Assembly (NCBI GenBank): GCA_016285885.1
Contig: JAEERP010000003.1
Location: 253,510-317,509 of the forward strand
Origin: Paludibacteraceae bacterium
GTDB lineage: Bacteria > Bacteroidota > Bacteroidia > Bacteroidales > Paludibacteraceae
Direction: 5' to 3'
DNA length: 64,000 nt
Shown: piece by piece, positions 27,746 through 36,658 of the stretch
Numbering within the stretch: the first letter of the stretch is position 1
Layout of the letters: every line of letters starts with the position of its first letter
The notes under the pieces: generated by a model
Told to the model about the DNA's origin: nothing
Seen by the model: only the letters and a program-made list of their open reading frames with translations
Databases searched by the model: none
Translations under genes and position numbers: made by a program

Positions 27746-30382
27746 ATGAAGAAAATAATCGCTACGATACTATTGGCCCTTTGGGCGATCCCCTCCTCTT
27801 TCGCAGTCCTGAAAGAAAAGAACCTCGAGCAAACCCTACGGGTACTCCTGATGGAGTTGGAGACCTACAACAAGGAGCAGGAGGAGATGATGAAACGGTA
27901 CGATATGATCAGCAAAATGCAGCATCAGAACCTCATCAACACCATGCAGAAAAGCGAGCAAACCGCCCTTATGCTCTACTCCCAGAAACAGGATTACACC
28001 TTCGACCTCGCCTACGCCTGCCATGAGGCGACCCAGCAATACAACAACTTCTCGAAGAACATGATCCCTTTCCAGAAGATACAGGACATGTACAAGGTGG
28101 AGGTGAACCGATACAATAACATCATCGACATCCTGGAGATGCTACCTCCCCGCGTCAGGAGAACTCATGCCCTCCAAGACTCCTCCCTGCGCCATCCCAT
28201 CACCCATGAGCGAATGAACGCCGAAGGGAAAATCGTGGACTCCGTTCGCATACTCCCCGCCCCGATTAAGACGGACATGAAGGCACTTGCGGACAGCGCG
28301 AAGGCGAAAAGCATATTCTTGCTGAGCGAACAGGGACAAGCGAACAGGGACTCCTGCCTCGCCTTGGCGAAAGAGATCCGGGACAATCTCGTCTACCTCT
28401 ACAACGAAGTCTCCAAGGACAGCGAGCATTACGAGTTCGTCTCCCAACGGCTGAAGAAGGTGAACGACTACGCCATGGACCGCTACACCGACATCAAGAA
28501 ACTCATCTTCATCAACGGAGACGTGAACTACTTCACGATCATCAAGCGTTGGAGTTTTTACTATAACAACGCCAAACAAGACATCATGGAGAAGTACATG
28601 CAGCCGAAAGACAAATCTGTCCGCTCGGAATGGAGGGGCCCGATTGTCATCGGTCTGGCCATCTTCATCATCTTCTACCTGATCGTGGCGTTCCTGCTCA
28701 GCAACATCATCATACGCTTCGCAGTGCCGTCCCGCTTCAAGACGAACGTGTTCATCGCGAAGAAGCCATACTACATATTGGCCTTCTCTTTCGTGTTATT
28801 CGTTGCGGTGCTCCTCGTCATCAGGATTTTCACGATGCACAATTTCTTCATGATGGCAAGCAGGCTGCTGATCGAATATGCCTGCCTCGTCTCGGCGGTG
28901 CTCTTCTCGCTGCTGATCCGCTCCAGCGTCAAGCAGATTAAGAGTTGCTTCGTCATATACACGCCGATTCTCCTGATGGGTTTCGTCATCATTGTGTTCC
29001 GCATCATCTTCGTGACGAACAGCGTGGTGAGCATCCTCTTCCCTCCCCTCCTTCTGTTCTTCACCATCTGGCAGGCCATCTGCTTGAAGCGGCACAGGAG
29101 AAGGATTCACACCAGCGACGGGCTCTACACGGTCATATCCCTGGTCATCATCATGTCGAGCTGCATCGCCAGCTGGTGCGGCTATTCGTTGCTCGCCGTG
29201 CAGATCTTTATCTGGTGGCTGTTCCAACTGATGGCGATACAAACCATCACCTGCATCTACTACCTCATCAAGAAGTATGAGTTCCGATACCTCACCGCAC
29301 GGGCCATCAAAAAGGACGACAACCTAACCCTCACGTCCCTCCGACAAGCTAGGCAGTTGGCCTACGAGATGGTGCACCCGAACAAGCACACGTTGGGCGA
29401 CCATATACGCATCACCTGGCCATACGACCTCTTCATCAAGACTCTGGTGCCTATCTTCATCATCAGTTCCTTCCTGATCTGCATCGTTCTGGCGGCGGGT
29501 ATCTTCGACCTCTCGGAGTCCTTCAAGATCATGTTCTACACCAACTTCATCAACGTGGAGGGTGTCTGCCAACTCTCCCTCTTCAAAATGTTGGTCATCT
29601 CCGTCACCTTCTTCGTCTGCCGCTTCATCTGTTACGGCATGAAGGCCATATACAAGCAGTACCGCGTCAAGCATTTCACCCTCAACGGTGAAGCGAACAT
29701 CACCTTGGCGAACAATATCATCTCCATCCTCGTGTGGGGCGGTTTCTTCATCTATGTCCTCGTCTTCCTGAAGGTGCCTAAGTCCGGCATCTCCATCGTG
29801 ACGGCAGGTCTGGCCACCGGTATCGGTTTCGCCATGAAGGATGTCATCGAGAACTTCATCTACGGCTTGTCACTCATGACGGGACGTGTCAGGGTGAACG
29901 ATTACATCGAGTGCGACGGTGTCAGAGGAAGGGTGGACACCATCACCTACCAGAGCACGCAGATCGTCACCTTGGACGGTTGCGTCATCGCCTTCCTCAA
30001 CTCGACATTGTTCAACAAGACCTTCAAGAACCTCACCCGCAACCATGGGTACGAGTTCATCAAACTTTCCGTCGGCGTCAGCTACGGGTCGGACATCGAA
30101 CAGGTTCGGAAAATGCTAGTGAAGGCGCTCTCCGTGCTGACCAAACCGGACGAGACCGGCATATCACCCATCGAGCCTAACCGAGGCATCAACGTGATAT
30201 TGGATGGATTCGGAGATAGTAGCGTAGACCTCTTCGTCACCTTCTGGGGACTGGTGGAACGGAAACTCACCCTCAGCGGCAAGGCGAAGGAAATCATCTA
30301 TAACACGCTCAACGCAAACAATGTGGAGATTCCATTCCCGCAACGAACCGTATACATCAAGGAATTGCCGGCAGACAAATAA
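27746..30382 (+). CDS. Large MscS-family mechanosensitive channel
   Basis: 878 residues. Signal peptide, a periplasmic helical domain to about residue 290, then about ten membrane segments, and the MscS pore and vestibule at the end: GISIVTAGLATGIGFAMKDVIENFIYGLSL (TM3 pore helix with Ala/Gly repeats), followed by VNDYIECDGVRGRVDTITYQSTQIVTLDG. The layout resembles MscK/MscM-type large channels that open on osmotic downshock. A TATTTTTG element (27683-27690) lies upstream and could be the promoter, divergent from cstA. Confidence 0.9.
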   Translation: MKKIIATILLALWAIPSSFAVLKEKNLEQTLRVLLMELETYNKEQEEMMKRYDMISKMQHQNLINTMQKSEQTALMLYSQKQDYTFDLAYACHEATQQYNNFSKNMIPFQKIQDMYKVEVNRYNNIIDILEMLPPRVRRTHALQDSSLRHPITHERMNAEGKIVDSVRILPAPIKTDMKALADSAKAKSIFLLSEQGQANRDSCLALAKEIRDNLVYLYNEVSKDSEHYEFVSQRLKKVNDYAMDRYTDIKKLIFINGDVNYFTIIKRWSFYYNNAKQDIMEKYMQPKDKSVRSEWRGPIVIGLAIFIIFYLIVAFLLSNIIIRFAVPSRFKTNVFIAKKPYYILAFSFVLFVAVLLVIRIFTMHNFFMMASRLLIEYACLVSAVLFSLLIRSSVKQIKSCFVIYTPILLMGFVIIVFRIIFVTNSVVSILFPPLLLFFTIWQAICLKRHRRRIHTSDGLYTVISLVIIMSSCIASWCGYSLLAVQIFIWWLFQLMAIQTITCIYYLIKKYEFRYLTARAIKKDDNLTLTSLRQARQLAYEMVHPNKHTLGDHIRITWPYDLFIKTLVPIFIISSFLICIVLAAGIFDLSESFKIMFYTNFINVEGVCQLSLFKMLVISVTFFVCRFICYGMKAIYKQYRVKHFTLNGEANITLANNIISILVWGGFFIYVLVFLKVPKSGISIVTAGLATGIGFAMKDVIENFIYGLSLMTGRVRVNDYIECDGVRGRVDTITYQSTQIVTLDGCVIAFLNSTLFNKTFKNLTRNHGYEFIKLSVGVSYGSDIEQVRKMLVKALSVLTKPDETGISPIEPNRGINVILDGFGDSSVDLFVTFWGLVERKLTLSGKAKEIIYNTLNANNVEIPFPQRTVYIKELPADK

Positions 30383-34874: not shown

Positions 34875-35026
34875 TCACAAAAAACGCTACGCGAAGTTAG
34901 GGATATTTTTTAAGTTATCAGACCAATGGATTCATTGTTTAACTAAAATAGTGGATTTTAGTGCAACCCTACCATGGCTTGTGAGCGCTCAACTTTGCGG
35001 TAATCTGCATAAACCGACTAAAACTT

Positions 35027-35170
35027 TTTCGGTTATAATAGAAAATTATGTCTGTTTCGGTAAAAGTTTCGGTTATAGTAGAAAATTTATTGTTTTTTAC
35101 GGAAAAGTTTCGGTTATGATAGAAACTTTTGTATATTTGTGGAAAAGTTTCGGTTATGATAGAACAAATG
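35027..35170 (+). repeat. Four 40-41-nt direct repeats ending on the DUF4143 ATPase start codon
   Basis: TTTCGGTTAT begins at 35027, 35067, 35108 and 35148 (steps 40, 41, 40). The consensus continues with nATAGAAA and an AT-rich segment, and ends with CGGTAAAAG, ACGGAAAAG or GTGGAAAAG. The last copy contains the ATG (35156) of the ATPase. The repeats are not inverted and have no spacers of fixed unique sequence. They could act as operators, iterons or recombination sites. Confidence 0.85.
35108..35139 (+). promoter_or_regulatory. Promoter-like pair inside the repeat array
   Basis: TTTC (35108-35111, one mismatch to TTTG) and TATATTTG (35132-35139) are spaced by 20 nt. The start of transcription would be near 35146, about 10 nt before the ATG. 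Only the third repeat has an exact TAnnTTTG, so the array may hold one working promoter flanked by degenerate copies. Confidence 0.5.
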
Positions 35171-36451
35171 GAAAATATTAGAGCCTACAACCCGTGGGGA
35201 GGAAGCGATATCGCTTTAGGCTATAGGCGTGACTTCTATATGACAAAGATTACCCCTTACATCGGCAATTCTTTGGTGAAGGTGCTTACGGGGCAGCGAA
35301 GGACAGGCAAGAGCTACATTCTTCGTCAAATAGCCATGGAGCTTATACACAAGGGGATAGCACCTGAAAACATATTGTTCATCAACGCCGAGTTCTCCGC
35401 CTTCAACTTCTTGCAGACGCACGAAGATCTCGAGAAACTCATTCAGGAGTACCGCAAAGAATTGTCCCCTCAAGGCAAATTCTTCCTTTTCATCGACGAA
35501 GTGCAAAACATAACCGGTTGGGAAAGGAGTGTCAACTCGTTATCTCAGGACTTCACCACCCCCTGCGAAATATTCATCAGCGGATCCAACTCGACCATGC
35601 TCTCGGGAGAACTGGCGACGCACCTATCGGGGCGATATGTTCAGTTCGAAATACTCCCTTTCTCCTATAGGGAGTGGTGCGATGTCCACCAAAAGGAGCA
35701 AGGCTTCGATAGTTACGAGGAATATCTTCATGACGGGGGACTACCCGAGCTAATACACCTAAACGACGACGAAGTGAGACGTCATTACATGTCCAGCCTC
35801 AAAGACACCATCCTGCTTCGCGACATTATCTCACGGTACTCCATCAGAGATCCCAAACTGTTGGAAGACCTTTTCGTCTACACCGTGAACAATGCGACAA
35901 AGCTCACAACGCCCAACAACATTGTGAAGTTCTACAAAGGGAAGGGGAAGAAGGTGAACTACGAAACCGTAGCGTCGTACCTTGCCTATATGACAGAGAC
36001 CTACATTATCCATAAAACCGAGCGATACAACATCCAAGGCAAGGAAACCATCGCGGGGAACTGTAAATACTACATCAACGACCTCTCATTCTACAATTAT
36101 CTCTACAGAGGCTTTTCTTTCGGGGCAGGCTATGAACTGGAGAATTTAGTCTATTTGGAGCTACGCAGAGCCGGTTACAAAGTCTATGTGGGGACCATAC
36201 AGGGCGCCCACACTGATGAGCAAAGCGAGGTCGATTTCGTGGCCATAAACGGAGACAAAAAGATCTACGTGCAGGCTTCCTACGAGACAAGCGACCCCAA
36301 AACGCTGGAGCGGGAATACTCCTCTTTGGAACTCATCCAAGACCACTACCCCAAATTTGTTGTAACCCTAGATAAGTTCCAACGTCCCAACAGAAACGGT
36401 ATCGTGCATGTACTGGCGCCGGAGTTTCACAAGGTGTTGGAGAGGATTTGA
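35156..36451 (+). CDS. AAA_14/DUF4143 ATPase with PD-(D/E)XK-like C-terminus
   Basis: 431 residues from ATG 35156; a second ATG at 35168 is equally possible. P-loop GQRRTGKS (about 46-53) and Walker B FLFIDEVQ (about 111-118) lie in an AAA_14 domain. The SGSNSTML and FEILPFSYREW segments follow. The DUF4143 half contains QSEVDFVAINGDKKIYVQASYE, the pattern of the restriction-endonuclease fold (E...D...E/Q-x-K-like). Such genes are expanded as paralogues in Bacteroidales with unknown role. The gene is directly bracketed by two unrelated tandem-repeat arrays, and its local base composition is lower in GC than argC and rprXY. Confidence 0.88.
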   Translation: MIEQMENIRAYNPWGGSDIALGYRRDFYMTKITPYIGNSLVKVLTGQRRTGKSYILRQIAMELIHKGIAPENILFINAEFSAFNFLQTHEDLEKLIQEYRKELSPQGKFFLFIDEVQNITGWERSVNSLSQDFTTPCEIFISGSNSTMLSGELATHLSGRYVQFEILPFSYREWCDVHQKEQGFDSYEEYLHDGGLPELIHLNDDEVRRHYMSSLKDTILLRDIISRYSIRDPKLLEDLFVYTVNNATKLTTPNNIVKFYKGKGKKVNYETVASYLAYMTETYIIHKTERYNIQGKETIAGNCKYYINDLSFYNYLYRGFSFGAGYELENLVYLELRRAGYKVYVGTIQGAHTDEQSEVDFVAINGDKKIYVQASYETSDPKTLEREYSSLELIQDHYPKFVVTLDKFQRPNRNGIVHVLAPEFHKVLERI

Positions 36452-36452
36452 C

Positions 36453-36535
36453 GGTTAGGAAAATGTGACAGATTCCGCACTTCATGGTTAGGAAAATGTG
36501 ACAGGTTTAGCAATTCATGGTTAGGAAAATGTGAA
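36453..36535 (+). repeat. Three 33-nt direct repeats immediately after the ATPase stop codon
   Basis: GGTTAGGAAAATGTGA occurs exactly at 36453, 36486 and 36519, a strict 33-nt period. The first copy begins one base after the stop codon (36449-36451). Units 1 and 2 also share the tail (CAG.TT..GCA.TTCAT). Sequence differs from the 5' array, although both share GGTTA followed by a purine-rich stretch. Confidence 0.88.
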
Positions 36536-36602
36536 AGCGTATTATTTATATGATTGATATATAACGTATTAGCATAAAAAATTACCCGCAGCGATTATTA
36601 CC

Positions 36603-36634
36603 AAAAAAGCCGACAACGCAAAACATTGTCGGCT
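36603..36634 (-). terminator. Terminator of rprXY
   Basis: AGCCGACAA (36608-36616) pairs perfectly with TTGTCGGCT (36626-36634). On the minus strand it is followed by TTTTTT (36608-36603). It lies 25 nt past the rprY stop. Confidence 0.85.
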
Positions 36635-36658
36635 CCCATCATCATTAACTTAAAACAT

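Follow-up and report, generated by a model that had tools for sequence, protein, structure and literature searches.

A 431-aa gene in a 64,000-nt stretch of a Paludibacteraceae genome (hereafter, the window; genome G000 among the 16 genomes of the genus that were compared) lies between two different tandem repeat arrays, one containing its start codon and the other beginning a single base after its stop codon. The locus raises the question of whether arrays and gene form one unit, and what the arrays are for. The gene (35156 to 36451, forward strand; further in-frame starts are a TTG at 35129 and an ATG at 35168) stands between neighbours presumed to be argC and rprXY, names which were given in an earlier note from translations read by eye. 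The AAA ATPase and restriction-endonuclease-like domains which that note had recognized in the product were both found by Pfam search, i.e., AAA_14 at residues 40–174 (35273 to 35677, forward strand; E-value 4.7e-32; P-loop GQRRTGKS at residues 46–53) and DUF4143 at residues 222–373 (35819 to 36274, forward strand; E-value 3.7e-12). The gene was assigned to PDC-S01 based on these domains, an AlphaFold model, and the PADLOC PDC-S01 profile PDLC04787, which matched residues 22–424 of the protein at an E-value of 1.2e-136; in alignment A2, the window protein and 34 relatives were all matched by PDC-S01 models. In the nuclease-like motif (EVDF...YVQASY), the acidic pair plus ExK of a catalytic PD-(D/E)XK domain is not complete, as EVDF is kept and QAS replaces the usual ExK; the Q of this variant was invariant in 12 and in 35 aligned members of the subfamily. 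The AlphaFold model was calculated from a 35-sequence alignment (mean pLDDT 89.9), and its best Foldseek matches among solved structures were archaeal Orc1/Cdc6 on origin DNA, human OCCM, clamp loaders, and DnaA; the TM-scores were low (0.2–0.4). A profile search of solved structures with the window protein returned a single weak match (2qen_A, E-value 0.037).

PDC-S01 is a very common, unexplained family of suspected anti-virus genes. According to PMC12988326, it ranks fourth in frequency among prokaryotic defences (39,480 systems detected, 9,986 of them archaeal and 29,494 bacterial), and validation is described as pending for most such defence candidates; PMC13356809 also names it. As described in PMC12988326, PDC-S01 combines an ATPase with a member of the PD-(D/E)XK superfamily, as does the window protein. 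The nuclease motif of the latter is a Q variant, unlike PDC-S01 as known.

Array 1 (35026 to 35164, forward strand) is composed of four TTTCGGTTAT(N)(N)TAGAA copies at steps of 40, 41, and 40 nt. The TTTCGGTTAT copies start at 35027, 35067, 35108, and 35148, and the ATG (35156 to 35158) is located inside copy 4 (35148 to 35164), in agreement with the earlier description of four repeats at 40–41-nt steps, the last of which holds the start codon. The 18-nt form GTTTCGGTTATGATAGAA, searched with up to three mismatches, had four matches in the window, all within 35026 to 35164, while shuffled sequence gave a mean of 0.06 matches and reached four in none of 100 shuffles. Genome-wide (3.75 Mb, up to one mismatch), TTTCGGTTATNNTAGAA likewise matched four times, exclusively at array 1, with no match for the reversed-pattern control, and viral contigs held no exact match to the 18-nt form. 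The Bacteroidetes −7 box has the consensus TAnnTTTG. A match to it, TATATTTG, is located between copies 3 and 4 (35132 to 35139, forward strand), and array 1 thus overlaps the core promoter as well as the start codon of the window gene. In 250-nt bins, G+C was 0.33 for array 1 and 0.39 for array 2, compared to 0.47–0.51 for the ORF and 0.50–0.57 for argC; the difference in base composition from the flanks, pointed out in the earlier note, is thus clear for the arrays only. Both arrays were also detected by Tandem Repeats Finder (scores of 165 and 136, respectively). Elsewhere in the window, tandem 78-nt (and 156-nt) arrays were detected at 573 to 913 and 2144 to 2411 with scores of 403–479 and 206, which we take to resemble leucine-rich-repeat coding arrays.

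Repeats of this kind accompany homologous genes throughout the genus. DUF4143 matches were present in all 16 genomes (3 to 19 each), with 12 in G000, one of which is a broken gene. From the matches listed of a total of 182, 142 open-frame hits corresponding to 123 distinct proteins were obtained, and the 117 genes of at least 340 aa with enough upstream sequence were used. Start-region repeats scoring at least 14 were direct in 92 of these 117 PDC-S01 genes and direct or inverted in 103, compared to 6 of 88 control genes drawn from the PDC-S01 loci, and one shuffle per gene reached a score of 14 in none of the 117 cases; 14 PDC-S01 genes had no repeat above the threshold. In an initial control, 18 of 113 genes had reached a score of 14, and because several of the top-scoring ones shared their promoter region with a PDC-S01 gene, the control was rebuilt with the 88 genes given above. 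All six of its positives were counted, including L086 and L137, whose arrays match PDC-S01 motifs, and L136, which reads as such an array in reverse. The periods of the 92 direct arrays peaked at 33 nt (46 genes), 40 nt (15 genes), and 32 nt (14 genes). TAnnTTTG was found within 90 nt upstream of 101/117 PDC-S01 genes vs. 38/88 others, and in 74 of the 82 genes having both box and array, the box was at most 30 nt away from the array span.

Outside the genus, direct arrays above the threshold were less frequent (22 of 49 genes of the order, 4 of 30 of the phylum, in a sample biased toward the best Pfam-model matches), and several of these loci have palindromes instead. For the nearest relatives of the window gene across phyla (the best 80 of 586 named loci, 74 of which gave a usable gene), the start region had its best self-shift at 38–42 nt in 53/74 cases compared to 22/266 other genes; five rounds of shuffling gave 13, 5, 2, 4, and 6 of 74. 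Grouped by record title, this self-shift occurred in 23 of 30 relatives with no Bacteroidota group in the title and in 30 of the 44 others. Four plasmid copies were examined, i.e., one from Parabacteroides with a period of 40 nt (score 13), one from Bacteroides with a period of 33 nt (score 15), and two from Moraxellaceae (Acinetobacter and Moraxella) in which no array was seen. From the sequences sampled, promoter repeats look like a rule of the PDC-S01 family. In a search of the open literature, neither repeat arrays nor flanking repeats were found to have been reported for PDC-S01 genes.

The sequence of the repeat follows the protein that it accompanies. Among 118 genes with direct arrays, the motif was shared by all 71 pairs with a protein identity of at least 95%, by 97% of 29 pairs at 80–95%, and by 91% of 34 pairs at 70–80%, falling to 0 of 15 pairs at 60–70% and to 1–5% of pairs in the bins below 60%; as pairs share members and are not independent, the motif statistics are descriptive. 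The relative at L228, which belongs to a different taxonomic family, kept the same motif at 74% protein identity. Period length was linked to protein class as well, with 15 genes of the Q-variant nuclease class, one unclassified gene, and none of 110 ExK genes having a period of 40–42 nt (of the remaining Q-class genes, 10 had periods of 31–34 or 63–67 nt and 18 had none). For 53 pairs at 55–85% identity, 36 of which had kept the motif, retention was predicted best by the N-terminal 45% of the protein (AUC 0.96), followed by the middle part (0.92) and the C-terminal nuclease part (0.72). That the arrays are dispersed genomic repeats was ruled out, since the three motifs searched each sit at one place per genome. 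By these comparisons, the repeat sequence is private to each PDC-S01 protein clade, and the combined motif, period, and retention data suggest that the protein itself reads its array, presumably through its ATPase/winged-helix part.

Among the functions considered in the earlier note (operators for autoregulation, binding sites for the ATPase, ends of a selfish element), an autoregulatory operator fits the data best. At a probability of roughly 0.7, array 1 is an operator array of the window gene, bound and repressed by the gene’s own product. It would provide regularly spaced sites for this product straddling the promoter, to which the AAA+/winged-helix part would bind cooperatively and thereby repress its own transcription; both the binding of the array and repression through binding are steps that we infer. 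Because site sequences differ from one PDC-S01 clade to the next, paralogues within one genome are proposed not to cross-regulate each other. This reading draws on the excess of promoter repeats (103/117 vs. 6/88), their proximity to the −7 box, the 38–42-nt self-shift in the nearest relatives, the tie of the 40–42-nt period to the Q-variant class, the tracking of motif with clade (including L228) and with the N-terminal and middle parts, the Foldseek matches to Orc1/Cdc6 and DnaA, and the function of array 2 as a promoter array in another genome (see below). Set against it are the 14 genus genes below the threshold, the lower proportions in order and phylum, the two Moraxellaceae copies with no array, the one shuffle out of five that gave 13/74, and the TM-scores of 0.2–0.4.

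The arrays might instead be bound by a host protein (a transcription factor or a nucleoid protein), with the ATPase not reading them. Their overlap with promoters agrees with this, as such sites are commonly bound by host factors, but motifs that are private to protein clades, the single place per genome of the three motifs searched, and a 40-nt spacing that goes with one protein subfamily make it improbable. An iteron-like origin, i.e., use of the array by the Orc1/DnaA-like protein for replication or priming, would match both the Foldseek results and the Rep-iteron-like anatomy, yet the location here is chromosomal and the TM-scores are low, which leaves it more doubtful still. Simple slippage producing repeats with no function is the least credible of these explanations: copy numbers do differ among relatives, but the arrays are promoter-centred, clade-specific, and common in the family. 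In iteron-Rep plasmids and at Orc1/Cdc6-ORB origins, the gene of an AAA+/winged-helix initiator adjoins repeated sites over its own promoter. The arrangement at PDC-S01 genes is alike, but these are chromosomal single genes with a nuclease-like domain. A second parallel to the preferred operator reading is RptR, which according to PMC12255303 represses a defence-island promoter by binding three direct repeats within it, and the arrays here likewise lie in the promoter; RptR is a small separate regulator, whereas the presumed reader here is the large ATPase itself, with a motif for each clade. If PDC-S01 members carry their own DNA target, their specificity, regulation, insulation from paralogues, and possibly mobility would become directly testable, and the arrays could be used for finding lost PDC-S01 copies.

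Array 2 (36453 to 36534, forward strand) was found as described previously, with three exact GGTTAGGAAAATGTGA copies at 33-nt steps (starting at 36453, 36486, and 36519) and one base separating it from the TGA of the window gene (36449 to 36451). In the window, a fourth match with three mismatches occurred at 30103 (shuffle mean 0.33, no shuffle reaching four), and genome-wide at up to one mismatch, the only three matches were those of array 2, with none for the reversed-pattern control. At the same stringency, GGTTAGGAAAATGTGA was confined to G000, G001, G004, and G013 among the 16 genus genomes, over which the reversed-pattern control gave single matches in six. The G013 array comprises four GGTTAGGAAAATGTGA copies, the third and fourth of which are separated by a TATATTTG box. 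Directly behind this array comes a second PDC-S01 gene, which encodes 435 aa and terminates ahead of rprY. The second gene is missing behind the GGTTAGGAAAATGTGA arrays of G000 (three copies), G001 (two copies), and G004 (three copies), and in the window its place up to the end of rprY is taken by a stretch (36535 to 36658, no strand assigned) that includes a GCCGACAA...TTGTCGGC hairpin. Since array 2 heads a different PDC-S01 gene in G013, arrays 1 and 2 are not the two ends of one unit; the repeat-ORF-repeat unit put forward in the earlier note was therefore abandoned, and a single element bounded by both arrays was ruled out. Array 2 would be the same kind of operator array, belonging to the second gene that stands downstream in G013, and was presumably left here by loss of that gene, with a gain in G013 as the alternative. 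Such orphan arrays are a warning that a repeat-ORF-repeat pattern may represent two neighbouring switches instead of one element.

The locus itself is variable across the genus. The window gene was found in 4/16 genomes including its own, with a 98% identical orthologue in G001, G004, and G013, which contradicts conservation at this locus in all relatives. An empty site between argC and rprXY, the observation that had been proposed as a check, was seen in G012, where about 130 bp separate argC from rprY and both the gene and the arrays are missing. While rprY was found in 13 of the 16 genomes, eight of the 12 neighbourhoods compared besides the window (G008, G009, and six more remote ones) had no blastn match to argC within the stretch, so that G012 is the only clean empty site. 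In G001, G004, and G013 (L065, L067, and L069), about 830 bp of extra sequence, absent from G000, lies between argC and array 1, and in G013 it contains a reverse-strand ORF of 262 aa.

Arrays that stand without a DUF4143 gene, the occurrence of which had likewise been raised as a check, are not restricted to array 2. At the L012 site, 7/16 genomes have a CGTCCCGAAAAGTGT array, at one place each. The accompanying gene is intact in G001 and G009, broken in G000, and missing from G004, G005, G008, and G013. In the four gene-less arrays (L145, L146, L147, and L149; up to three mismatches allowed), 17 of 17 copies were exact, while the left flanks differ by 6–11% and the downstream gene by 4–6%; the spacers are identical in G005 and G008 except for one duplicated unit, and the same applies to G004 and G013. 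In the G000 array with the broken gene, two of three copies carry a change. Exact copies amid diverged flanks imply that strains exchanged the gene-less arrays or that selection maintained them, and they are not well explained by decay after gene loss, which counts against the operator reading. At L149 (G004), the orphan array and a presumably hemW-like gene are separated by an unrelated gene of 395 aa whose product, judged by eye, resembles a lipoprotein. Further orphan arrays were located downstream of L008, L002, and L003, others precede unrelated genes at L086 and L137, and in G001 and G013 (L159 and L160), one cassette is located inside the array of another. Genes appear to come and go, and recombination between flanking repeats would leave a single array.

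Direct repeats that flank entire PDC-S01 genes were sought between the 400 nt preceding and the 400 nt following each gene (score of at least 18), for 266 PDC-S01 and 257 control genes with enough flank. They were found at 55/266 PDC-S01 genes vs. 7/257 other genes (Fisher p 3e-11), and inverted flanking repeats of the same score at 17/266 vs. 2/257. For 31 of the 55 genes, a distance of 60 nt or more separates the left copy from the ATG (p 5e-5 against the same seven controls); the left copies of the remaining 24 extend into the promoter region, so that these cases partly repeat the operator signal. Merging by similarity yielded 46 distinct cases with repeats of 26–154 nt, in 27 of which the right copy starts at most 40 nt from the stop codon (12.6% expected). 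Several flanking repeats are host sequence, namely the start of the downstream gene at L004, L104, and L204 and the end of the upstream gene at L139, L084, L212, and L256; at L172, the copies are portions of two small genes that are related to each other. On one side, the reading frame of the neighbouring gene stays open at L004, L204, L256, and L084, and likewise at L139 and L212, but there the frame runs off the end of the stretch examined. The window gene is not bounded by a direct repeat above chance length, and its orthologues are also absent from the 55 flanked genes.

At five sites, alleles that lack the gene and have a single repeat copy were found; two of these are clean, i.e., both flanks match around the copy (L111 vs. 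L325 in G004, and L049 vs. L323 in G007). At L139 (G008), the two 50-nt copies are identical and lie within the end of another PDC-S01 gene, and the one-copy alleles of G000, G001, G004, and G009 match on the right side over only about 24 nt. The comparison of L003 with L156 in G005 showed one array instead of two, with a right flank that agrees over less than 200 nt, and for L033, the one-copy allele L324 in G007 is about 280 nt longer than the filled one and contains what we take to be the C-terminus of a tyrosine recombinase, running into the repeat. At L009 and L011, empty alleles were seen that have neither repeat, array, nor footprint.

PDC-S01 cassettes could also be considered single-gene mobile elements, in which array and gene insert together and duplicate tens to about 150 nt of the target, the array or the duplicated stretch serves as footprint or attachment site, and loss by recombination leaves an orphan array. 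The excess of flanking repeats with their 31 promoter-distant left copies, the position of right copies near the stop codon, the two clean and three partial one-copy alleles, and the cassettes nested at L159 and L160 agree with this. It is nevertheless an unlikely reading overall, as the cassettes read consist of a single gene, with neither a transposase nor an integrase, and their repeats differ in length. Of the five gene-less comparisons, three (L139, L003, and L033) are not simple insertions, and the empty alleles of L009 and L011 as well as the window gene lack repeats; 24 of the 55 cases partly repeat the operator signal, the repeat of L172 belongs to two related small genes, and plain RecA recombination, or tandem duplication followed by gene loss, could produce many of the cases. 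Integrative elements duplicate a gene end (att sites), and direct repeats bound some PDC-S01 cassettes, too; unlike such elements, the PDC-S01 cassettes read have no integrase, and their repeats vary in length and sequence. A bolder version, in which PDC-S01 are minimal single-gene mobile elements whose private array combines the roles of operator, identity tag, and footprint, has slightly poorer prospects again. Here, an Orc1/DnaA-like AAA+ ATPase with a PD-(D/E)XK-type domain would read its private array, and cassettes would enter gene ends, intergenic arrays, and each other, creating long direct repeats, with loss leaving an orphan array. If mobility were real, the abundance of PDC-S01 would reflect it as much as defence.

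Flank queries from L093 (504 to 598) and L063 (2066 to 2160) turned out to be dispersed repeats, many copies of which occur in G002/G007 and in G003/G006/G014/G015. The PDC-S01 gene at L329, on a plasmid of Acinetobacter radioresistens, adjoins WYL and BREX genes, and 188 Acinetobacter plasmid records match this region at least in part. At L106 (G004), repeats ending in AATTTCTACTATTGTAGAT, which presumably resemble Cas12a CRISPR repeats, were located upstream of a PDC-S01 gene, at a distance of more than 130 nt.
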